Made by a program: the position numbers and the translations under genes. DNA of 34,444 bases from Isosphaeraceae bacterium (GTDB taxonomy: Bacteria > Planctomycetota > Planctomycetia > Isosphaerales > Isosphaeraceae): NCBI GenBank assembly GCA_025356475.1, contig JANXSX010000219.1:1-34444 (forward strand). Direction: 5' to 3'. Below, one piece after another: positions 2,408-34,444 of the stretch. The notes below the pieces were generated by a model. It did not search any database. It saw only the letters and a list, made by a program, of their open reading frames with translations, and was not told where the DNA came from. Position 1 is the stretch's first letter. Every line of letters starts with the position of its first letter.

Positions 2408-3340
2408 TCAAGCTGTCGAAGCAGGTCTCATCAGGCTTGTCGTGATGATCCCGCCCAAGGTCAGCGCGGCCCCTAAGGCTAAGGCTGGGGTGAATGTTTC
2501 GCCCAGTAGCCACACTCCCCAGACGATCGTCAAGATGGGCGCAGCGTTCCCAAAAGTGGCGACCTGAGTGGCGTCAAATCGTCGCAAGGCTTGGTTCTGG
2601 AACGCCAAACCCAAGACCGTAACAATCAAGGTCAAGTGGATCAGTCCAATCCAAGCGGTCGCCGATACCATGTGCAAATGGGACAAGTCGGTTGTGGTCG
2701 CAAGTGCGATTGGGAGATCGATCAGACTTCCGATCAAGAAGGTTCCGGCCAAGGCGGGTAATGAGCCGTGACGAACAATCAGAGGCTTGTTGACGGTCAA
2801 ATAGGCACCCCAGGCGATCACTGCACCGACGAGCAGAAGATCACCCCGAAGCGTGTCCGCGCCAAGAGTCCCGCCGTGGAAGGCGACCAGGACCAAACCG
2901 AGCACGCTCGCGAATACCCCGATCGCTCGCCGCGCGACGAACCGTTCTTGACCGAGCAGGACCGCTAGGAACAGGACGACGAGTGGACATGTGGCGTAAA
3001 TCAAGGCCACATGAGAAGTTGGGGCAAGCTTCGTCCCGCTCAGGAAGAAAGTCTGGTTGATTGGTACGCATAACGCTGCTGCGAGTGCAACCCGACCAAA
3101 GTCTTCCTTGATCATCTTGAGAAGCCGTCCTCCTCTGAGGGCGAGTGGTAGGACACAGAGGCCGGCGATCCCAAACCGGACCAATGGCAAGAGCCCAACA
3201 GGGAGTTCTCGCACGGCATATTTCGCCGAGAGCGCCGTCGTCGAGCCGAGGACAACCATCAAAACAAGATAGGCATAGCCCGTGACGTCAACCTGATTCA
3301 CTTCGGTTGGTGAACTACTCACTGCGATACCATTCGACAT
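2408..3340 (-). CDS. EamA/DMT-family transporter
   Basis: The product is about 310 residues with ten predicted hydrophobic segments in two five-helix EamA halves. The first begins YAYLVLMVVLGSTTALSAKY and the second GDLLLVGAVIAWGAYLTVNK. Members of this drug/metabolite superfamily export amino acids, nucleosides or other small metabolites through the inner membrane; the substrate cannot be told from sequence. I chose the ATG at 3340 (MSNGIAVSSSP...), because the upstream in-frame extension to 3475 is Cys/Arg/Trp-rich, unlike a transporter, and overlaps the 5' side of the divergent gene. It is monocistronic. Confidence 0.88.
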   Translation of the reverse strand: MSNGIAVSSSPTEVNQVDVTGYAYLVLMVVLGSTTALSAKYAVRELPVGLLPLVRFGIAGLCVLPLALRGGRLLKMIKEDFGRVALAAALCVPINQTFFLSGTKLAPTSHVALIYATCPLVVLFLAVLLGQERFVARRAIGVFASVLGLVLVAFHGGTLGADTLRGDLLLVGAVIAWGAYLTVNKPLIVRHGSLPALAGTFLIGSLIDLPIALATTTDLSHLHMVSATAWIGLIHLTLIVTVLGLAFQNQALRRFDATQVATFGNAAPILTIVWGVWLLGETFTPALALGAALTLGGIITTSLMRPASTA

Positions 3341-3536
3341 CGATAGCTCTGCGCCTCTGGGTTCAATGCCTGGTCGGAACTCCGCCCAAGACGTAGTCCT
3401 ATCGTAGTGACAAAGGCAAGTTGTCGTCGGTTCACTCCAAGCCAGACTTGCACCTCTGGCGAGTCTCCGTACCATGGAAGAGTCAGCGCGAACATCGTGG
3501 GTAACGCCGTCGGACCTTGATCGGGGAGAGCGAGGA

Positions 3537-4028
3537 ATGAGTTTCGTCCAGAGCTTCGGGCACGCAATGATCGAAGCATACCTGGAAGAAGAGGAGTTGC
3601 ACTACCTCCGCGATCGGGATGGTGATTTCGTCATCGAGTTCGGATACGACGACGAGATTGCGGGCCACCCACGGTTTCTGCTCATCGCGGCGGGGGAAGA
3701 TCACCATCAGTTCTGTCTGCGAGGTGATACCCTCCGGAGAGTCTCCCGCCCGGACTGGGACAGGGTGATCAAATTGTGCAACGAGTGGAACTCGCAATAC
3801 AAGATGCCGAAGGTCTACTTCGAGGTCGATGACCCGAACGCTTCGGCGACAGGTCGAGTTGTCTGCGAACAGTGGCTTAACCTGGAAAATGGGATCCACC
3901 AGGAGGGAGTGAATGGCCTCACGAGCTCGTTCTTCTCGTCCTGTTTCGGCTTCTGGAGATGGATGGAGCGACAGAAAGACATCGAATCCTTAGGTGAGCT
4001 GGAGTTAGGTGAGGACGAACTCAATTGA
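3537..4028 (+). CDS. YbjN-domain-like protein
   Basis: The 163-residue acidic protein resembles the YbjN family (type III secretion chaperone-like fold). It has an N-terminal helix (FGHAMIEAYLEEEELHYLRD), beta strands ending in PRFLLIAAGEDHHQFCLRG, then the family-like LCNEWNSQYKMPKVYFEVDD and a C-terminal helix followed by an acidic tail (ELELGEDELN). YbjN proteins act as regulators or chaperones of unclear mechanism. The ATG at 3537 is preferred over one at 3474, because it has the site GGGGAGAG about seven bases upstream and begins the conserved part. A short hairpin follows the stop. Confidence 0.75.
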   Translation: MSFVQSFGHAMIEAYLEEEELHYLRDRDGDFVIEFGYDDEIAGHPRFLLIAAGEDHHQFCLRGDTLRRVSRPDWDRVIKLCNEWNSQYKMPKVYFEVDDPNASATGRVVCEQWLNLENGIHQEGVNGLTSSFFSSCFGFWRWMERQKDIESLGELELGEDELN

Positions 4029-4085: not shown

Positions 4086-5087
4086 ATGTCACTATTCCCA
4101 CTCTTTCACGAAGATCCCGCTGAGGATCTGGCCCCTCAAGCGGCCCGATTAGCTCCCAAATTGAAGGCTCTCGCCGATCAGGGGGTCTACTTCGGGACCA
4201 GTTCATGGAAGTATGAGGGCTGGCTCGGGAGCATCTATCAGGCGGATCGCTATCTGACCCGAGGTAAGTTTTCGCGAAAGAAATTTGAGGAAGAGTGTCT
4301 GGCCGAGTACGCCGCGACCTTCCCGGTTGTTTGTGGCGATTTTGCCTTCTACCAGTTTCCTTCGCCGGAATATTGGAAGCGATTCTTCGAGGGATCGCCA
4401 TCGTCGCTTTTGTTCGCGTTCAAAGTCCCCGAAGATATCACGGTGGCCAGGTGGCCAACCCACGCCCGCTATGGAACCAGAGCCGGGGAAGAGAACGAGG
4501 GATTCCTTCGAGCCGACCTCTTCAAGACCCTGTTCGCACGCCGGCTCGAACCTTATCGCGACCGGGTCGTCACTCTGATTTTCGAGTTCGGCACTTTTCC
4601 CAAATCCACATTTCCAACAGTCGACGCATTTCTCGCCAGAATTGAGCCATTTCTGAAGTCACTTCCAGCCGGCTTCCGATACAGTATTGAAATTCGTAAC
4701 CAAGAGTATCTTGTACCCAGATACCTATCATTACTAGCGAGTGTGCGTGTCGCTCATGTCTTGAATTCCTGGACGCGGATGCCCGATCTCGGCACTCAAA
4801 TTGAAATGCCGGATGCGTTTACTACAGACTATACAGTCGTTCGTGCCCTTCTCAAGAGGGGGAGGGCCTACGAACAAGCGGTCGAAGCATTCGAGCCCTA
4901 CCAACGCACAGTCGAGCCAAACGAGCCGGCGCGGGAGGCGATGGCGCGAATTGCCGAGCGGTCTCTGACCAAGAACCAACGTGCTTACATCTTTGTCAAT
5001 AATCGCCACGAGGGGAACGCCCCTTCAACCATTGAGCATGTCCTGGAGAAGATTCGTCCCCAGGGCAGGCACATCGCAGCCGACTGA
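4086..5087 (+). CDS. DUF72 (YecE-like) protein
   Basis: The 333-residue protein has the DUF72 hallmarks: GVYFGTSSWKYEGWLGSIYQ near residues 34-53, the core strand FKVPEDITVARWPTH, the long arginine-rich middle, RYSIEIRNQEYLV, and the C-terminal AYIFVNNRHEGNAPSTIEHV. The family has a TIM-barrel-like fold and no firmly established reaction; it is common next to DNA-repair and Fe-S genes. It begins at an ATG with GAGCGAGA upstream. It is followed at 63 bases by a DUF2256 gene and then by a membrane protein, all on the plus strand, so they may share a transcript. Confidence 0.92.
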   Translation: MSLFPLFHEDPAEDLAPQAARLAPKLKALADQGVYFGTSSWKYEGWLGSIYQADRYLTRGKFSRKKFEEECLAEYAATFPVVCGDFAFYQFPSPEYWKRFFEGSPSSLLFAFKVPEDITVARWPTHARYGTRAGEENEGFLRADLFKTLFARRLEPYRDRVVTLIFEFGTFPKSTFPTVDAFLARIEPFLKSLPAGFRYSIEIRNQEYLVPRYLSLLASVRVAHVLNSWTRMPDLGTQIEMPDAFTTDYTVVRALLKRGRAYEQAVEAFEPYQRTVEPNEPAREAMARIAERSLTKNQRAYIFVNNRHEGNAPSTIEHVLEKIRPQGRHIAAD

Positions 5088-5150
5088 TAATTCAAAGGCT
5101 GAGGTTTTGCTCTTATATCTTTGCAAACATGTCAATACCAGTGGTGCAAA

Positions 5151-5406: not shown

Positions 5407-6780
5407 ATGGCAGGTCATCGATTGCAGATCGTATTGATTGGGCTGGCGATCAGTGTTCGGGTGGCCGCAGTCCTGGTCTTACAGAGCCACCACGTTCCGA
5501 ATAGCACCTACGAGCACGGGACGATCGCGGCCAATCTCTTGGCCGGTCGCGGATTCTCGACCCGCTTCCTCGGCGCTGAAGGACCGACCTCACAGCAGGC
5601 ACCTGTCTATCCGTTTGTCGTGGCAGCCGCCTATGCGATCGGTGGGGTCGGCTCGTCCAACTCCTTACTGCTCCTCGAACTCAGCCAAGCTCTGCTCGGC
5701 GGATTGCTGGTTGTAGGCGTTCTCGCCTTGATTCGAGAGATCGCCCCGCACCGGCCCTGGCTCGGCCCAACGGCGGCCTTGGTCGCGGCAATTCATCCAA
5801 CGCTTGTTTACGCGACAACGCATGTCCAGGTGGCCTCGCTCGCCACCTGCCTGCTCGTCTGGACGCTGGCTCTCGCGTATCGAACCGGACGGACAGCTCA
5901 GTTGAGCGACGCCGGAATGGCAGGGATCTCCCTGGCACTTCTTGCCCTCACCGACCCCATTCTCGCACTCGTCGCCCCGGGGATGGCCTGGGCGATCGCG
6001 CTTCGTGAAGGCTGGAAACGGGCAATCCGACCGATCGCGACAATCGCCATCGTAGCAGCCCTTGGGATACTCCCGTGGACCGTGCGTAACTACCTGGTCC
6101 ATCACGAGTTCGTAGCGATCAAGAGTTCGTTCGGCTACGCATTCTGGCAGGGAAACTGCGCTCTGAGCCAGGGAACCGATAAGGTTGTCCGAGCTTCCGT
6201 CGAGAAGATCGTGAACCGACCGGTCGACGACCTGCAGAGCTGGAACGATTCACTTTGGGCTGCTCGCCACGAAGCGGGTTACATCGACGATATCGCACTG
6301 ACTCAGGCCGATTATCAAACCCTCGGTACCCTTTCCGAGCCCGCCCGCTCGCGGCTGCTCTATCGACGTGCCCAAGCCGACCTTAAGGCTAAACCGGGCC
6401 GTTATCTCCAACTCTGCTTGAGTCGGCTCCGTGCGTTTATGCTCTTCGATGAGACGAACCCGAAAACCCGAAGCCTGGTCTACCGGATCCCTCACCTTGG
6501 TCTTTCGATATTCGCATTGGTGGGGCTCTTGCTCATGCCTCACAAGCTGCGGACCCGGCTTGCCCCCACGATCCTGACCACGCTGTTCATCACGATTTTC
6601 CACACTTCGACGATCGTGTCCGCTCGCTTTCACATACCGATCGAACCGCTGATGGGATTGTGGGGAGTCGCAGGACTCGCTAGATTTCAAACCATTCCTC
6701 CAGCGACCAGCAAGGCCCAAGGCGTCGGTGGTATGCACCATCGCCTTGGTGTGGCGCGCGAACTACCTGTGGGCATCTGA
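5407..6780 (+). CDS. Polytopic membrane protein, GT39/ArnT-like
   Basis: The 457-residue protein is highly hydrophobic with roughly ten membrane segments. After the first (LQIVLIGLAISVRVAAVLVL) comes a luminal loop with the signature HGTIAANLLAGRGFS and GPTSQQAPVYPFVVA. This is the pattern of the dolichyl-phosphate-mannose/ArnT-type (GT-C, PMT_2) glycosyltransferases, where an acidic residue and a GxG loop bind a polyprenyl-linked sugar. The large external loop (about residues 245-330) lacks strong motifs. An ATG at 5407 with GAGGA seven bases upstream is preferred over a TTG at 5380. The last 20 residues (HHRLGVARELPVGI) are not membrane-like and may not be conserved. Acceptor and donor are unknown. 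Confidence 0.75.
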   Translation: MAGHRLQIVLIGLAISVRVAAVLVLQSHHVPNSTYEHGTIAANLLAGRGFSTRFLGAEGPTSQQAPVYPFVVAAAYAIGGVGSSNSLLLLELSQALLGGLLVVGVLALIREIAPHRPWLGPTAALVAAIHPTLVYATTHVQVASLATCLLVWTLALAYRTGRTAQLSDAGMAGISLALLALTDPILALVAPGMAWAIALREGWKRAIRPIATIAIVAALGILPWTVRNYLVHHEFVAIKSSFGYAFWQGNCALSQGTDKVVRASVEKIVNRPVDDLQSWNDSLWAARHEAGYIDDIALTQADYQTLGTLSEPARSRLLYRRAQADLKAKPGRYLQLCLSRLRAFMLFDETNPKTRSLVYRIPHLGLSIFALVGLLLMPHKLRTRLAPTILTTLFITIFHTSTIVSARFHIPIEPLMGLWGVAGLARFQTIPPATSKAQGVGGMHHRLGVARELPVGI

Positions 6781-7299: not shown

Positions 7300-8799
7300 A
7301 TGCAACGCGATCATCTTCTCGTCGTCGACCAAGGCACGACGAGCACACGGGCTGTCGTCTATGACCGTCAACTTCGACCAGTCGGGCAAGGCCAAGTCGA
7401 GGTTCTACCATCCTACCCAAAACCAGGCTGGGTCGAGCACGATCCCGAGGCGCTGGTTGATTGGGTCGGCCCGATGATCGTCAAGGCTCTCTCCGACGCT
7501 GGACTGACTGCTGCACGGGTCTCGGCCATCGGGATCACCAACCAGCGCGAGACCACCATTATTTGGGACCGAAGTACGGGGAAGGCGATCGCCCCAGCGA
7601 TCGTCTGGCAAGACCGACGGACGGCCGATTTCTGCGACCGACACCGCGATCGTCGAGCCTGGATTGCTGAGCGGACGGGCTTGGTGTTAGACCCATATTT
7701 CTCCGCGACCAAAATGGCTTGGCTTCTCGACCACTGCGAAGGGATGAGAGCTCGAGCAGAAGTAGGGGAACTCGCCGCAGGGACAGTCGACAGCCTGCTG
7801 GTCTGGCATTTGACCGGCGGTCTGAAGCACGTTACCGACGCCACGAATGCCTCCCGAACTCTTTTGATGGATCTGCGGACGCTGGCGTGGGCGGATGACC
7901 TCTGTCTCTTCTTCGGAGTCCCCACCCAAATATTGCCCCAAATCGTCCCAAGTTCCTCGGTGGTTGGCCAAACACGGGGGTTGGGGTATCTCCCAGACGG
8001 GATTCCAATCGCCGGGATCGCGGGCGATCAGCAGGCGTCCCTCGTCGGCCAGGGATGCCTGGTGGCCGGACAAGCCAAGTGTACTTACGGCACGGGCGCT
8101 TTCCTGCTGGCCCATACCGGCTCGACACCCGTCGCTTCAACGCGTGGGCTTGTGACAACCTTGGCGGCGACCCTTGGAGATGGACCTGCACAGTACGCAC
8201 TCGAAGGGAGCGTATTCGTGGCTGGAGCGGCGGTCCAATGGTTCCGGGATGGCCTTAAGGCGGTCGGTGCCGCTCCCGAGATCAACCCGCTCTGCGAAGC
8301 CTCCGACCCATCGTCGGAAGTTTTGTTTGTACCTGCTCTCACGGGGCTGGGGGCTCCCCATTGGCAGCCCGAAGCGCGTGGAACGATTTTCGGTCTGACC
8401 AGGGCTACGAGCATTGCCGATCTCGCCCGCGCGACATTGGAAGGGGTCGCCTACCAGGTCGCGGATCTGATCGAGGCCATTGATGCGGACCTACCCAATC
8501 CGCTCACGGATCTCAGGGTCGATGGAGGAATGGCTCGCTCCGACCCATTCCTCAAATTCCAGGCCGACTTGCTGGGTTTCCCCATCAAACGCAGCCCAAA
8601 CACCGAGTCGACCGCACTCGGGGCTGCCCTGCTAGCGGGCCTCGGGGTTGGCCTCTGGCCGAGTGTCGAGGCCGCCGTCGAACTTCTTCAAGCGGGTGGG
8701 CAAGAAATTTTGCCCAGCCGAGACGAAGCCTGGCGACAGGCTTCGCTCGGTCGGTGGCGACATGCCGTGCAGACCGTCAAGAACCATTACTTGAGCTGA
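7300..8799 (+). CDS. glpK: Glycerol kinase
   Basis: The 499-residue protein is a full-length FGGY-family kinase that phosphorylates glycerol to sn-glycerol 3-phosphate in the cytoplasm. Seen are the phosphate-1 loop DQGTTSTRA near residue 10, the glycerol-kinase stretch GWVEHDPEALVDWV, ITNQRETTIIWDRSTG, the FGGY/ATP loops GIAGDQQASLVGQ and YGTGAFLLAHTG, and the late DGGMARSDPFLKFQADLLG signature. Length and motifs fit GlpK rather than xylulokinase or gluconokinase. No glpF or glpD lies beside it, so glycerol uptake or oxidation genes are elsewhere. It converges with the nucleotidyltransferase gene, stop to stop only 11 bases apart. Confidence 0.96.
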   Translation: MQRDHLLVVDQGTTSTRAVVYDRQLRPVGQGQVEVLPSYPKPGWVEHDPEALVDWVGPMIVKALSDAGLTAARVSAIGITNQRETTIIWDRSTGKAIAPAIVWQDRRTADFCDRHRDRRAWIAERTGLVLDPYFSATKMAWLLDHCEGMRARAEVGELAAGTVDSLLVWHLTGGLKHVTDATNASRTLLMDLRTLAWADDLCLFFGVPTQILPQIVPSSSVVGQTRGLGYLPDGIPIAGIAGDQQASLVGQGCLVAGQAKCTYGTGAFLLAHTGSTPVASTRGLVTTLAATLGDGPAQYALEGSVFVAGAAVQWFRDGLKAVGAAPEINPLCEASDPSSEVLFVPALTGLGAPHWQPEARGTIFGLTRATSIADLARATLEGVAYQVADLIEAIDADLPNPLTDLRVDGGMARSDPFLKFQADLLGFPIKRSPNTESTALGAALLAGLGVGLWPSVEAAVELLQAGGQEILPSRDEAWRQASLGRWRHAVQTVKNHYLS

Positions 8800-8810
8800 G
8801 TCGATCAAGT

Positions 8811-10130
8811 TCACGAGCGCCGAGAGGCGGCAACGACCGGCCACGTATCGTTTCGACGGTCGTTGTTCTTCTGGAAGGCGCGCTCACGCTCGAGCCTGGT
8901 TTGCTCGTGAAGGTCAAGGTAGAGCTGACAATCCACGTCGCTGAAGACCTGGTTCCGCCTCCCCATCACGATCTTGGCGGTATTGAAGAGTTCGTCGAGC
9001 GCAAAGCCTGGGGCAACCCGTCCGTACAATACCGCAGTGAACGAAGGAACATGCTTGGGCAGGAGCAGGCCCGCAGGAAGTACGTTACACATCACCCCAA
9101 TGGCGGTCCCGGTGTTGAGCATACTCCCTAGGCCGGTGCGTGTGTGGTCGCCAACAAAGCACCCCACCTTCGCCTGGCCAGTCGCGACAGGGTCGCCACC
9201 CAAGGGGACGAAGACTTCGCCGTAATCGTTCCGCAAATCACTATTTGAAGTGATCGCCCCCAGATTCACCCATTCACCGATATACGCGTGCCCGAGGAAG
9301 CCCTCGTGATACTTGTTCGACTGGCCGTGGACAATACTTTGCTCGACCTCTCCGCCGATCCGGCAGTTTGGCCCAAGGGTGACACCCCCTCGGAGATTGG
9401 CGCGAAAGAGTTGAGTGTCGCGACCGATGTGGCAGGGACCTTCAATGCGAGTGAAGGGCTGGACGATGACACCCGCTTCGATGGTGATCGGTCCATTGGT
9501 GGTATCGAGCACTGTGTAGGGATCGAGACGAACCGATTCATCAATGTAGAGTCGATCCGAAGGGCCCACGAGTGCGACATTGGAGATTGGCCGATTGCCG
9601 ATCCCTACCTTGCCCGCCTCGAGGAAATCTCGTTCCAGGTGCGCCGAGTTCTTGGCCACAATGTCCCAGGGACGAGCGATCCAGTCGCCACCGACATCAT
9701 GTTTCTCAAGCTTGTCGGCGATGTCCTGGAACCAGGAATCCATGGTATGTGGTTCGAGACCACCCGCCAGATTAGGCCCGACGAACGCGTAGGCCACCTG
9801 ACCTTCACAAAGCCCGACGCAATGCTGGCCATGAGGTGGAGTGACAAATCCGGCGGGAGGGACCCAGCGTGCATTGACGACCAGGGTCGAGTCCTGACTC
9901 AGCCAGGTTCGATCGTTGACCGCGAGGTACGGGTCCCGAGACTTCAAAACCTTGGCAAGGTGGGGCCGAACGACCACGCCTCGACCTGGGGATTGGGGAT
10001 CGAACCTGAAGGCACGTCGGATCTTATCACCAATCGTCCCGGCTCCCAGCCTCAAGTCGTAGGCAGGCCGAGTCAAGGCGAGAGGTTCGAGGCCGGCAAC
10101 CGCAATATCTTCGACCAAGCAAAGCCGCAT
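8811..10130 (-). CDS. GlmU-related sugar nucleotidyltransferase with left-handed beta-helix
   Basis: The 439-residue protein resembles the alternative (Bacteroidetes-type) GlmU group: it opens RLCLVEDIAVAGLEPLALTRPAYDLRLGAGTIGDKI, the TRP...DLR.G..TI pattern of that group, followed by VVNARWVPP. The C-terminal half has hexapeptide-like turns (IEAGVIVQPFTRIEGPCHIGRDT, LGPNCRIGGEVEQSIVHGQSNKYHEGFLGHAYIGEW), which build a left-handed beta-helix in acetyltransferases. A role in making UDP-GlcNAc or a related NDP-sugar is likely but the sugar is not certain. The start has GGAG nine bases upstream. A charged tail (RERAFQKNNDRRNDT) ends it. Confidence 0.85.
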   Translation of the reverse strand: MRLCLVEDIAVAGLEPLALTRPAYDLRLGAGTIGDKIRRAFRFDPQSPGRGVVVRPHLAKVLKSRDPYLAVNDRTWLSQDSTLVVNARWVPPAGFVTPPHGQHCVGLCEGQVAYAFVGPNLAGGLEPHTMDSWFQDIADKLEKHDVGGDWIARPWDIVAKNSAHLERDFLEAGKVGIGNRPISNVALVGPSDRLYIDESVRLDPYTVLDTTNGPITIEAGVIVQPFTRIEGPCHIGRDTQLFRANLRGGVTLGPNCRIGGEVEQSIVHGQSNKYHEGFLGHAYIGEWVNLGAITSNSDLRNDYGEVFVPLGGDPVATGQAKVGCFVGDHTRTGLGSMLNTGTAIGVMCNVLPAGLLLPKHVPSFTAVLYGRVAPGFALDELFNTAKIVMGRRNQVFSDVDCQLYLDLHEQTRLERERAFQKNNDRRNDTWPVVAASRRS

Positions 10131-30659: not shown

Positions 30660-33600
30660 TCATTCCACGAAGAGAAACTCGTTACAGTTCAACAGCAAGC
30701 GGCACGCAGCAGCAAGTGAGTGCTTGTCGGCGATGGCGACAAACCTGGACGACTCTTCCGGGGTTGGATCACGGAGCAATGTGAGTCGAAACGCCTCACG
30801 GATCTGGTCGGCAGTCGTCGCTTGACTGGCCTTCACCCGGCTGGCCAGATGACCGCTCTGATTGAGGACAAAGTTATTGTTCAAGAGTGCAAGTGTCTGG
30901 AGTGGAGAGACGGAAAAGCCGCGGATCGGCGCGAGTAACGAGGCGTCTGGGAAGTCAAGTGCCTCCATGAGCGGGTCGGGAATGCTTCGCCACACGACTC
31001 GATAGATGCTCCGCCGACCTGCCCCCGGACTGTCCCAATCGAAGGCGGAATAGTCGAGAGTCGGAGTGAGTTGCGGGCCAGGACGACTCTGGAAGAGGGC
31101 AATTCCCACCCCACCCATCGTCAAATCGAGCCGACCACTCACCGCGAGAACGGTGTCTCGAAAGGCATCCGCATCAAGTCTCTGACGATTCATCCTCCAG
31201 AGCAAGCGGTTCTCCGGATCGATCGCGGCTGCCTCCTCACGATGAATCGACGCTTGCCTATAGACAGAACTTCGACAAATCAGTCGATGAAGATGCTTGA
31301 GTGATCCCCCTTGGTCACGAAGTTCAGCCGCGAGCCAGTCGAGCAGTTCGGGATGCGAGGGCAGACCGCCCATCCGACCAAAATCATTGGGGGTGTCGCA
31401 GAGACCCCGGCCAAAATGAGATTGCCAGACCCGATTGGCGATGCTTCGCCAGGTAAGTGGATTGTTCGGGTCGGCAATCCAATCGGCCAGAGCCACCCTT
31501 CGCGCGGCTTCGTTACTAGGGTCCGAGAGTTCGAACCGAGCCTTGAGCGCGGTCACCGCCGAGAGCGATCCTGCAACAACCTGTTCACCGGGCTTATCGA
31601 GTTCACCACGATTGAGAATCGTGACGATGCGAGGTGAGGCGAACGCGATCAGCCCCCGATCGTTCTCAGCCATGCTCGCGGCCCCATAGACCTTCACCTG
31701 GGCAGGGAGCTTTGCAATTTCGACCTCCGCGTGAACCTTCAGAACGGCGGAAGCAAGTGCTTTGTTTTGCTCGGCGCTCCTTTGGTCGATGGGGATTTGG
31801 AGCGCTGAGTCTGCAAGTGCTGGCAGGGCGATCGAAGTTTCACCGGGCGAACTGGTCGCCGAGAGTCGGAGTCGCCCCAGGATGTGGCCACCGCCATGCA
31901 GTTGCTTGAGCACGACAACCAGCCTGGCATCCGAACTAAGCTTCAGTGGTTGTTCGAACTCAAACACAGCATGATGGGACTCACCTACTTTTGGGTAGAT
32001 ACCCCACGCTGTGGCAGGATTGCCGTCGATCGCGCGAGCGATCCCCCAATCGACCTGGTTCCAGTCGGCGGTCGCTCGGCGAAATTTCAGTTTCTCAGGC
32101 TTCGGCTGGCCGGGCCGGAAGACCATTGCCTCGAACTCGCTGAGGTGAAGGTTGCCATTATCCATCCGTCCCGGCCCGCTCAAAGGGAGCGAGGGGTCAG
32201 CAAGCACATCAAGCCGCAATCCGTGAATCTCGCTCAGTCGGCTGGTGACTGTCAGAGTCGTCGTTTCTTTATCAGGTCGAGTCCCTCCCGAGAGAATCGA
32301 CCCGTCCGGCTCTCGTTTCAGATCCGCACCCCCCGAGGAAACAAAGACGTCCACATCCAAAGGTATCCATGCATTCATTGCCGAACGCGACTGCTCCCAA
32401 GCGGCCACCAAGGACCGGTTTTCGGGGCTGAACAGGAGGTCGGTTTGCTCTTGATCACACGCAGCCAGGACCGACTTCCAATGGCTCCGCTGTTGCTCCA
32501 CGCCCTGGTCTTCATCGTAGGAGATATCGCCCTTGCCGATCCCTGCAAAAACGGCCTGAAGCGAGAAGTAATCCTCTTGAGAGATCGGGTCGAACTTATG
32601 TGCATGGCACCTTGCGCAGTTGGCCGTGGTGCTGACAAAGGCCCCCATGGTCTGGGTGACGAGGTCGTCGCGATCGAGATACTCGAACGCCATCGGAGCG
32701 GTGGCGGCGGCACTCTGGTCGTACGGGCCGGCTCCCAAGAATCCGAGTGCGGATTTGAGGCGGGGCTCATTCTTGCAAAGGACATCGGCCGCAAGTTGTT
32801 CTTGGATAAATCGGGGCCAAGGCTTGTCGACGTTGAAGCTCTCGATCACGTAGTCGCGATATCGCCAGGCATTCGGTCGAAGGACGTCGTGCTCAAATCC
32901 ATGCGTGTCCGCAAAGTGGATCAGATCAAGCCAGTGCCTCGCCCAGCGTTCACCATACCGAGACGATGCCAGCAGACGATCGATCAATAGTTCATAAGCA
33001 TTGGGATCAGGATCTCTGACAAATGCGTTTACCTCCTGGGGAGAAGGTGGCAGGCCTGTCAGGTCGTACGAGACGCGTCGAATCAAGGTACGTCGATCGG
33101 ATTCGGGGGCCGGCTGCAACTTTGCATCCGTCAACTTGAGGTAGATGAATCGATCGATCGCGGTCCGCGACCATTGCGTTCCCACTTCGCCGAGCGAGGG
33201 GACTTCGGGTCGTTTCAAAGGTCGGAGAGACCACCAATCGGTCGAAGGAGTACCCCCCTTGGCTGGACTCGCCGGCTCGGTGCGAGGATCGACCGCCCCT
33301 TGAGCAATCCAGCGGTGGAAGTCGGCCACAACCGACGGCGTCAACTTGGTCTTGGGCGGCATCGCCGAGACCTCACCCGAGTGGGCGATCGCCTGGTAGA
33401 GCGGGCTTTCTTCGGGCTTGCCAACCACGACCACCGGCCCTGAGTCGCCACCTTTACGCAAACCGTTCCGACTATCGAGTTGAAGACCACCCTTTGGTGT
33501 GGGAAGTTCCGAGCCGTGGCACTTCTGGCAGTGTTCGACCAGCACCGGTCGAATCTTCGTCTCGAAGAACGCGACCAACGCAGGGTCATCGCTCGCGTTC

Positions 33601-33683
33601 GCCAGCATGCCGCCCAGACCAAGGAAAGGCGCGAGGATCGCAGCGAGACGAACGAACTGACCTCGCGGAATGAGGTTCCTCAT
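30660..33683 (-). CDS. Planctomycete cytochrome c / DUF1549 / DUF1553 protein
   Basis: The 1007-residue protein has a signal peptide (LAAILAPFLGLGGMLANAS) and a PSCyt1 haem domain with CQKCH at 52-56 and a possible distal Met in SAMPPKTKLTP. A DUF1549 domain follows (IDRFIYLKLTDAKLQPAPESD, DLTGLPPSPQEV, YGERWARHWLDLIHF), then a second CxxCH (CARCHAHKFDPI at about 356-360). A long beta-rich insertion with a LamG- or CBM-like look lies between about 470 and 680, and the C-terminal DUF1553 closes it (ADWIADPNNPLTWRSIANRVWQSHFGRGL, PSHPELLDWLA). It probably carries two c-type haems. The ATG at 33683 has AGGG about nine bases upstream; one at 33692 lacks spacing. The DUF1501 gene follows in the same operon. 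Confidence 0.94.
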   Translation of the reverse strand: MRNLIPRGQFVRLAAILAPFLGLGGMLANASDDPALVAFFETKIRPVLVEHCQKCHGSELPTPKGGLQLDSRNGLRKGGDSGPVVVVGKPEESPLYQAIAHSGEVSAMPPKTKLTPSVVADFHRWIAQGAVDPRTEPASPAKGGTPSTDWWSLRPLKRPEVPSLGEVGTQWSRTAIDRFIYLKLTDAKLQPAPESDRRTLIRRVSYDLTGLPPSPQEVNAFVRDPDPNAYELLIDRLLASSRYGERWARHWLDLIHFADTHGFEHDVLRPNAWRYRDYVIESFNVDKPWPRFIQEQLAADVLCKNEPRLKSALGFLGAGPYDQSAAATAPMAFEYLDRDDLVTQTMGAFVSTTANCARCHAHKFDPISQEDYFSLQAVFAGIGKGDISYDEDQGVEQQRSHWKSVLAACDQEQTDLLFSPENRSLVAAWEQSRSAMNAWIPLDVDVFVSSGGADLKREPDGSILSGGTRPDKETTTLTVTSRLSEIHGLRLDVLADPSLPLSGPGRMDNGNLHLSEFEAMVFRPGQPKPEKLKFRRATADWNQVDWGIARAIDGNPATAWGIYPKVGESHHAVFEFEQPLKLSSDARLVVVLKQLHGGGHILGRLRLSATSSPGETSIALPALADSALQIPIDQRSAEQNKALASAVLKVHAEVEIAKLPAQVKVYGAASMAENDRGLIAFASPRIVTILNRGELDKPGEQVVAGSLSAVTALKARFELSDPSNEAARRVALADWIADPNNPLTWRSIANRVWQSHFGRGLCDTPNDFGRMGGLPSHPELLDWLAAELRDQGGSLKHLHRLICRSSVYRQASIHREEAAAIDPENRLLWRMNRQRLDADAFRDTVLAVSGRLDLTMGGVGIALFQSRPGPQLTPTLDYSAFDWDSPGAGRRSIYRVVWRSIPDPLMEALDFPDASLLAPIRGFSVSPLQTLALLNNNFVLNQSGHLASRVKASQATTADQIREAFRLTLLRDPTPEESSRFVAIADKHSLAAACRLLLNCNEFLFVE

Positions 33684-34163
33684 GCACGTCATCCCTAGGT
33701 TCGTCGTCTGGAAGGTCGAGCCCCCCGACCCAGCTCGTTTGACCCGTACTACACCGATTCTGAAGATCGCGTGGGCTGGATCAATTGTTTAACATTATCG
33801 AGTGTATCGACGAATAACAAGCCACCTGGTTTGAAACACCAGGGGGAGCGTAAGCGTGGCGTCAAGCGGACGCAAGATCCCAGGCCCGGCAATGGTCAGC
33901 CTAACGTATTGAGTTCAGCGGCGCGACGGCCACTGGACTTTGAAAACACCCAGCCGCAGAACGCGTCCGCTGCAACGATTTGTTAGGCGGCACTGACCAA
34001 CCGATTCTGCAACACTCGTTCTTGTTTGGTTTTCCAGAAAGGAAAGATCAGGAGCCCCACTTCCGAATCCTGCAACCACTCTTTGACGTCTCCGACAAAA
34101 ATTAGATTTCCTGATATTTCATCGCAAACTCATTGATTTTCACAAGTTGTGGCGATATTGATC
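33684..34163. other. About 480 bases without a protein gene
   Basis: Apart from the attC-like site this gap holds the presumed minus-strand promoter region of the cytochrome gene (not assignable) and AT-rich DNA from about 34090 onward. A small hairpin, CCTGG-9 bases-CCAGG, lies near 33823-33845. No open frame here looks coding. Confidence 0.5.
33899..33988 (-). other. attC-like integron recombination site, lone copy
   Basis: The 90-base site is bounded by GCCTAAC (33899-33905) and GTTAGGC (33982-33988). They fit the core-site consensus RYYYAAC and GTTRRRY exactly and are perfect reverse complements. Inside lie TTCAGCGG (33914-33921) and CCGCTGCAA (33967-33975), which pair with one extra base, and the stem extends through CGCG (33922-33925 with 33962-33965) with a second unpaired T at 33966. 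Two unpaired bases on one side of an imperfect stem are the hallmark of attC sites folded for integrase. By the usual rule that the extra base is in the L'' box, the cassette orientation is minus. No integrase or second site is in the window. Confidence 0.65.
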
Positions 34164-34192
34164 TTGACTCGTACTTGGATGTGTTGTATACT
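34164..34192 (+). promoter_or_regulatory. Near-consensus sigma-70 promoter for the transposase
   Basis: TTGACT (34164-34169) and TATACT (34187-34192) match the -35 and -10 consensus at five of six positions each, with the ideal 17-base spacing. The predicted start near 34199 gives a leader of about 27 bases with AGGAG (34210-34214) before the ATG at 34226. Confidence 0.7.
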
Positions 34193-34225
34193 TGAGCATC
34201 ATCTATCATAGGAGTTGCGTCCAGA

Positions 34226-34444
34226 ATGCGACATATCGTCGATCCCAAACAAAATCGACTCTTCGACCCCTTCCAAGGGCTCTTCTCAAAGATCGGTCTC
34301 CGGACCATCAGCCAAGGATGGCAGGGGGTGTTTCGACACGTCATTCTCGAACTGCTACCAGTCGCGAAACTCGCTCAGCATTTCCACCTGACCATCGGCG
34401 CTCCCACCAAAGAACTCTACTCAATGGCGGGTCTCACCTTCCTG
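34226..34444 (+). CDS. Transposase, N-terminal fragment cut by window edge
   Basis: The frame is open for 73 residues to the edge: MRHIVDPKQNRLFDPFQGLF, then GWQGVFRHVILELLPV and GAPTKELYSMAGLTFL. The pattern GWQGVFRHVILEL(L/M)PV...GxPTKELYSMAGL is shared by a large group of DDE transposases often labelled IS1182- or ISNCY-like and common in planctomycetes and cyanobacteria; I recall the pattern but cannot fix the family. The start has a good ribosome site and a strong promoter upstream. The ends of the element are not identified. Confidence 0.75.
   Translation, partial: MRHIVDPKQNRLFDPFQGLFSKIGLRTISQGWQGVFRHVILELLPVAKLAQHFHLTIGAPTKELYSMAGLTFL

Follow-up and report, generated by a model that had tools for sequence, protein, structure and literature searches.

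The window, by which we mean the whole stretch of 34,444 nucleotides analyzed, is a complete contig (C173) of an Isosphaeraceae draft genome of 5.9 Mb in 232 contigs, with an estimated contamination of 1.6%. Near the right-hand end of the window, an ordinary planctomycete gene is followed, in plus-strand order, by a short intergenic segment, an attC site, what is left of a cassette reading frame, and the end of an insertion sequence (IS); the contig ends ~450 bp past the attC (Table 1).

Table 1. Features of the window and, in the last two rows, of repeats elsewhere in the same genome
Feature	Position	Strand	Remarks and basis
PSCyt1-PSCyt2-PSD1 gene, ordinary planctomycete	30660..33692	(-)	Chromosomal side of the probable array edge; Pfam
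Segment after R'	33839..33898	(-)	Recurs after attC elsewhere; in-register matches in G006:C82, own C105, G023
Promoter-like hexamers TTGCGT and TACGCT	33875-33870 and 33852-33847	(-)	Spacer 17
attC site, 90 nt	33899..33988	(-), cassette orientation	R1 and R2 scores, folds, shuffles
R' box GTTAGGC	33899..33905	(-)	Sequence
L' side CGCGCCGCTGAAC	33913..33925	(-)	Sequence, fold, pair counts
L'' side GTTGCAGCGGACGCG	33962..33976	(-)	Extra G and extra A relative to L'; sequence, fold, pair counts
R'' box GCCTAAC	33982..33988	(-)	Internal TAA is the stop of the upstream cassette frame; sequence, frame check
3' remnant of cassette reading frame, KEWLQDSEVGLLIFPFWKTKQERVLQNRLVSAA, then stop	33983..34083	(-)	Stop inside R''; translation, frame check
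Insertion sequence end TGACGTCTCCGACAAAAAT...	34084..34444	(+)	Transposase-like ORF starts at 34226; continues past contig end
CTGGTCGAGTACGACCAGTGCCACCC repeat	L107 (C105) 4991-5101, 6082-6190; L108 (C5) 135-207, 1453-1527, 2239-2313, 3433-3507; L109 (C175) 3508-3584		
AGTAACGCGGCGAAGGCTTGATGCGGGTTGACAGGTCCGTTACGCTCGAGG cassette start copies	L107 (C105) 7527-7734, 9086-9297; L109 (C175) 1028-1267, 3214-3455		

On the plus strand, GCCTAAC at 33899-33905 and GTTAGGC at 33982-33988 form a perfect outer palindrome around an imperfect inner stem; in cassette orientation, which is that of the minus strand, the sequence runs GCCTAAC-AAATC-GTT(G)CAGCGG(A)CGCG...CGCG-CCGCTG-AAC-TCAATAC-GTTAGGC. The outer boxes match RYYYAAC (R'') and GTTRRRY (R') and are complementary at 7/7 pairs, and both the fold and pair counts place unpaired bases in only one arm of the L''/L' stem, the left, where there are two, six pairs apart. 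Two extra bases in the left arm, six pairs apart, is the arrangement of well-studied attC sites. A preliminary description made from the letters of the sequence had proposed an attC-like site here, with outer boxes fitting the core consensus and inner boxes pairing with two extrahelical bases; its coordinates proved exact and the site a full attC, with all seven outer pairs of GCCTAAC/GTTAGGC formed and the two bases identified as the extra G and A. The 131-bp region folded better on the minus strand than any of 200 dinucleotide shuffles (z -3.2), and none of 150 dinucleotide-shuffled windows combined 7/7 R pairing with an equally strong inner stem. In the fold check, which had been suggested, the plus and minus strands gave an identical hairpin. 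Recombination in characterized attCs takes place between G and TTAGGC; by analogy, the same point is predicted within R' of the window, and the recombining (bottom) strand would be the window plus strand. Just outside the R boxes, TGGTCAG (33893-33899) and CTGACCA (33993-33999) flank the attC and extend the pairing; this outer pairing is missing from the G006 counterpart and was treated as chance.

Two covariance models were built, in each case leaving out the window site: R1 from 12 attCs of resistance integrons on public plasmids, and R2 from 25 attCs of related planctomycetes. With filters off, R1 placed the window site, on the minus strand, at 30.3 bits (E 7e-6), with 9.1 bits for the runner-up in the 34 kb, and R2 awarded it 57 bits, with E 1.8e-9 for the whole genome; scoring against an attC model had been recommended at the outset, and both models bear the call out. 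R2 was run on the entire genome with 150 candidates scored and recovered the window site, whereas with exact R-box patterns over the same genome the window site was picked up and the other true attCs escaped. A scan of 59 genomes with R1, at 70 candidates scored per genome, missed the window site itself, and its negatives thus carry no weight. In alignment A3, which comprises the window site and 19 others, the proportion of paired cells is 97.5%, versus 23-45% when partners are slid, and four pairs changed on both sides, which occurred in none of 500 shuffles; one compensatory example in L''/L' is T-A in the window versus C-G in most relatives.

The minus-strand frame that enters the attC ends at the TAA of the R'' GCCTAAC, the orientation expected for a cassette gene. 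Of 23 sites checked in the arrays of three relatives, 18 have a frame of 45 codons or more that ends at the R'' TAA; in the window only 33 codons are readable because the cassette gene is truncated by the IS, and the 33-amino acid remnant had no match in Pfam, plasmids, or the other loci fetched. The IS end that cuts the gene, at position 34084, sits 95 bp from the attC and outside the site. This boundary was placed by comparison with copies at C45, C48 (two, inverted), and C229, and none of those four other ends has an attC at that flank. The transposase-like ORF (73 amino acids present) gave no family match, and a GA-cis match from Rfam at 34209-34289 fell far under its gathering score. At C48:3485-3700 (L038), two inverted copies of the window IS end stand face to face with almost nothing between them, and this element is a near-palindromic derivative of the window IS without its transposase. 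Because the IS splits its gene, the window cassette is probably now a relic, and the attC itself could still recombine.

On the opposite side of the attC, the 60 bp after R' (33898 down to 33839) are not confined to the window. They directly follow an attC in G006:C82 (85% over 61 bp), recur in the window's own genome after an attC at C105:10935-11033, and recur more weakly in the G023 array; the C105 and G023 copies stand between attCs of an array. Each in-register alignment exceeded 2000/2000 shuffles, and the alignment scores of 66, 35, and 31 compare with 19 or less for 25 other post-attC stretches. The segment is not a common repeat, since among 45 family genomes its exact 21-base core was seen at just two places, one in this genome and one in G006. 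Hexamers similar to TTGCGT and TACGCT occur at the equal spacing of 17 in G006 and G023. The segment is best read as the putative opening, with a promoter, of one more cassette that would have lost its own attC. A cassette start of ~210-240 bp (AGTAACGCGGCGAAGGCTTGATGCGGGTTGACAGGTCCGTTACGCTCGAGG), 80-96% identical between copies, comes after four attCs on C105 and C175; it looks promoter-bearing.

The genome encodes an integron integrase, IntI, at C152:64867-65586, scoring 356 bits with TIGR02249 (cut-off 265). Its closest solved relative is IntI4 of V. cholerae (PDB 2a3v; E 1e-68), with which the IntI-type insert and the catalytic motifs align; the N-terminus is lost at the end of C152, at about model position 78. 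Two copies of the 5' end of intI, identical over 141 bp, are present, at C152:65448-65588 (L017) and C9:1-143 (L018), and the assembly therefore breaks there. After ~143 bp, the frame on C9 departs from intI and runs into a stretch with AATTCGAAGGGGACA repeats, then a YD-repeat-like frame. Nine further attCs were found on four contigs: four on C105 (plus strand), and two on C5, two on C175, and one on C200 (all minus). They keep to one strand per contig with cassette-like spacing, and their loops differ. The preliminary description had called the site solitary and had seen no integrase; these statements hold for C173, on which R1 and R2 found the window site as the sole attC, and for the window, respectively, but not for the genome. 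The genome yielded no attI. Among the genes that accompany its attCs are members of the PIN-like, DUF433/DUF5615, ParE-type toxin, and Unstab_antitox families, which chromosomal integrons commonly carry as passengers, and some of the attCs lie in cassettes of toxin-antitoxin type; cassette-like genes between copies were what we had been advised to look for. Taken across the draft genome, the contigs suggest cassettes at four or more loci, with upstream array edges on C152, C175, and C5 and an internal cluster on C105. A self-complementary repeat of ~75-110 bp (CTGGTCGAGTACGACCAGTGCCACCC) adjoins several of these attCs; it could be a small palindromic mobile element resident in cassette arrays.

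Of the 59 genomes searched, the present one included, 14 contain a strong match to this IntI. Genome G025 combines intI and an attI-like GTTAGGC with 11 or more attCs that all point the same way; intI is accompanied by an array in G023 and by one attC in G030, whereas G029 has an array but no integrase match. The recommended search of this genome and its relatives for attCs and intI yielded the nine attCs and the C152 gene at home and intI with arrays in relatives. In G011 (L079, G011:C1), intI at 177089-177796 contains an in-frame TGA and is adjoined by several attCs; this is an integron with a decaying integrase. In G006:C82 (L036, ~5480-5540), three GTTRRRY-type, attI-like boxes lie upstream of a single complete cassette, no intI being seen on the contig. 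Nothing at gathering level was returned by Rfam on the relatives' arrays. The left arm of the window attC also occurs in contigs labeled Gammaproteobacteria, Acetothermia, Dehalococcoidia, and Armatimonadaceae, and the Armatimonadaceae attC with a window-type left arm closes a complete cassette.

That the window site is a genuine attC we regard as virtually certain. An intergenic palindrome whose pairing is extended past the R boxes by TGGTCAG/CTGACCA could in principle be a non-integron hairpin, either an intrinsic terminator or an attC-like palindromic repeat, but no terminator-like site was found in 33650-34250, there is no T-run, a DNA search found no second copy of the 131-bp stretch in the genome, and the site has high attC model scores on the expected strand, the two extra bases, and a cassette-type stop codon; we consider such a hairpin highly improbable. 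The earlier judgment that this is no plain terminator is upheld by the missing T-run, the covariance scores, and the compensatory changes among relatives. The missing second copy of the 131 bp, together with the presence of the other attCs in cassette runs, also leaves unsupported an attC-derived repeat dispersed without an integron, one of three readings initially offered. Even less credible is that the site belongs to the adjacent IS, as a transposon end mimicking or carrying an attC: the IS end is only 95 bp off and attC is a known target of some insertion sequences, but the boundary at 34084 is outside the attC, 0/4 other ends carry the hairpin, and it is the gene and not the attC that the IS breaks. 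The observations named beforehand as speaking against an attC included copies confined to one IS family and a terminator; instead, the IS ends at 34084 and its other copies are without attC.

How the attC came to lie here is less tightly constrained. A single cassette could have been integrated off-target, at an attG-like secondary site, by an IntI encoded elsewhere, with never an array at this locus. The window site is the sole attC on its contig and stands beside an ordinary chromosomal operon, and cassettes do get dispersed in this genome, since the contigs with attCs point to at least four separate loci; a possibility of real weight is thus left to this explanation. It is nevertheless the less probable one, because the sequence beyond R' is also found behind attCs at three further locations, two inside arrays, which suggests that a second cassette followed. 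We therefore think it fairly likely that the window holds the edge of a cassette array, which of the three readings initially offered fits best: a truncated cassette gene lies on one side and a segment recurrent after attCs on the other. The third of those readings, a SALIN/CALIN-type site without an integrase, fails at genome scale given the IntI on C152.

The site is thus very probably the sequence that IntI recognizes at the 3' end of a gene cassette, and it probably lies at the distal edge of an array in a planctomycete chromosome. As in characterized integrons, the plus strand of the window would fold into a hairpin, IntI would bind at the R and L boxes in an orientation dictated by the two unpaired bases, and recombination between G and TTAGGC would insert or excise a cassette. 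The cassette gene has been cut by the IS at 34084. We infer that the host IntI uses the window attC, and the rest of the array would lie beyond the IS, on another contig. With an integron integrase and further cassettes in its own genome, the window attC is a normal component of an established gene-capture system rather than a stray curiosity. Reading of the raw sequence had found a true attC, and the result assigns to a planctomycete family that has been little studied a family of chromosomal integrons with integrase, attI-like sites, arrays, and cassettes of toxin-antitoxin type. For the expression of such cassettes, the recurrent promoter-like start offers a modest lead. As a speculation that we consider improbable, planctomycetes of this family might scatter integron cassettes over several loci, with the recurrent promoter-bearing cassette start driving ordinary chromosomal genes (here the PSCyt/PSD1 operon) at array edges.

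Compared with known systems, the window shares with a CALIN an attC without a nearby integrase, but a CALIN comprises at least two attCs close together without an integrase, and C173 has only one, four being present on C105 of the same genome. At least two attCs is also the default for a CALIN in IntegronFinder 2, although a true positive may consist of one attC and integrons are broken up in draft assemblies (PMC9024848). A complete integron has intI, attI, and cassettes at one locus; the window has neither intI nor attI, and its cassette is interrupted by the IS, whereas its attC is of the same general type as those of the complete integrons of G025 and G023, whose integrases share 69% and 62% identity, respectively, with the present IntI over the part available. 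The closest likeness is to the attCs (59-base elements) of planctomycete-type chromosomal integrons, with which the window shares the R''/R' consensus, L boxes with two unpaired bases, a long variable loop, the cassette stop in R'', and an IntI in the genome. It differs from them in its left arm, AAATCGTTGCAGCGGACGCG versus CTCGCGCTGCAGCGGACC in most relatives, and also resembles the Armatimonadaceae attC (L093), with 67 of 93 aligned columns identical. Genes for IntI have been reported in Planctomycetes (PMC2426708), a Planctomycetes-specific attC covariance model has already been built (PMC8352920), and the phylum is among those that carry integrons, in whose sedentary forms attCs tend to be conserved and cassette-borne promoters are possible (PMC8618304). 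Integrons and attCs being already reported from planctomycetes, the window element is ordinary for an integron-bearing genome.
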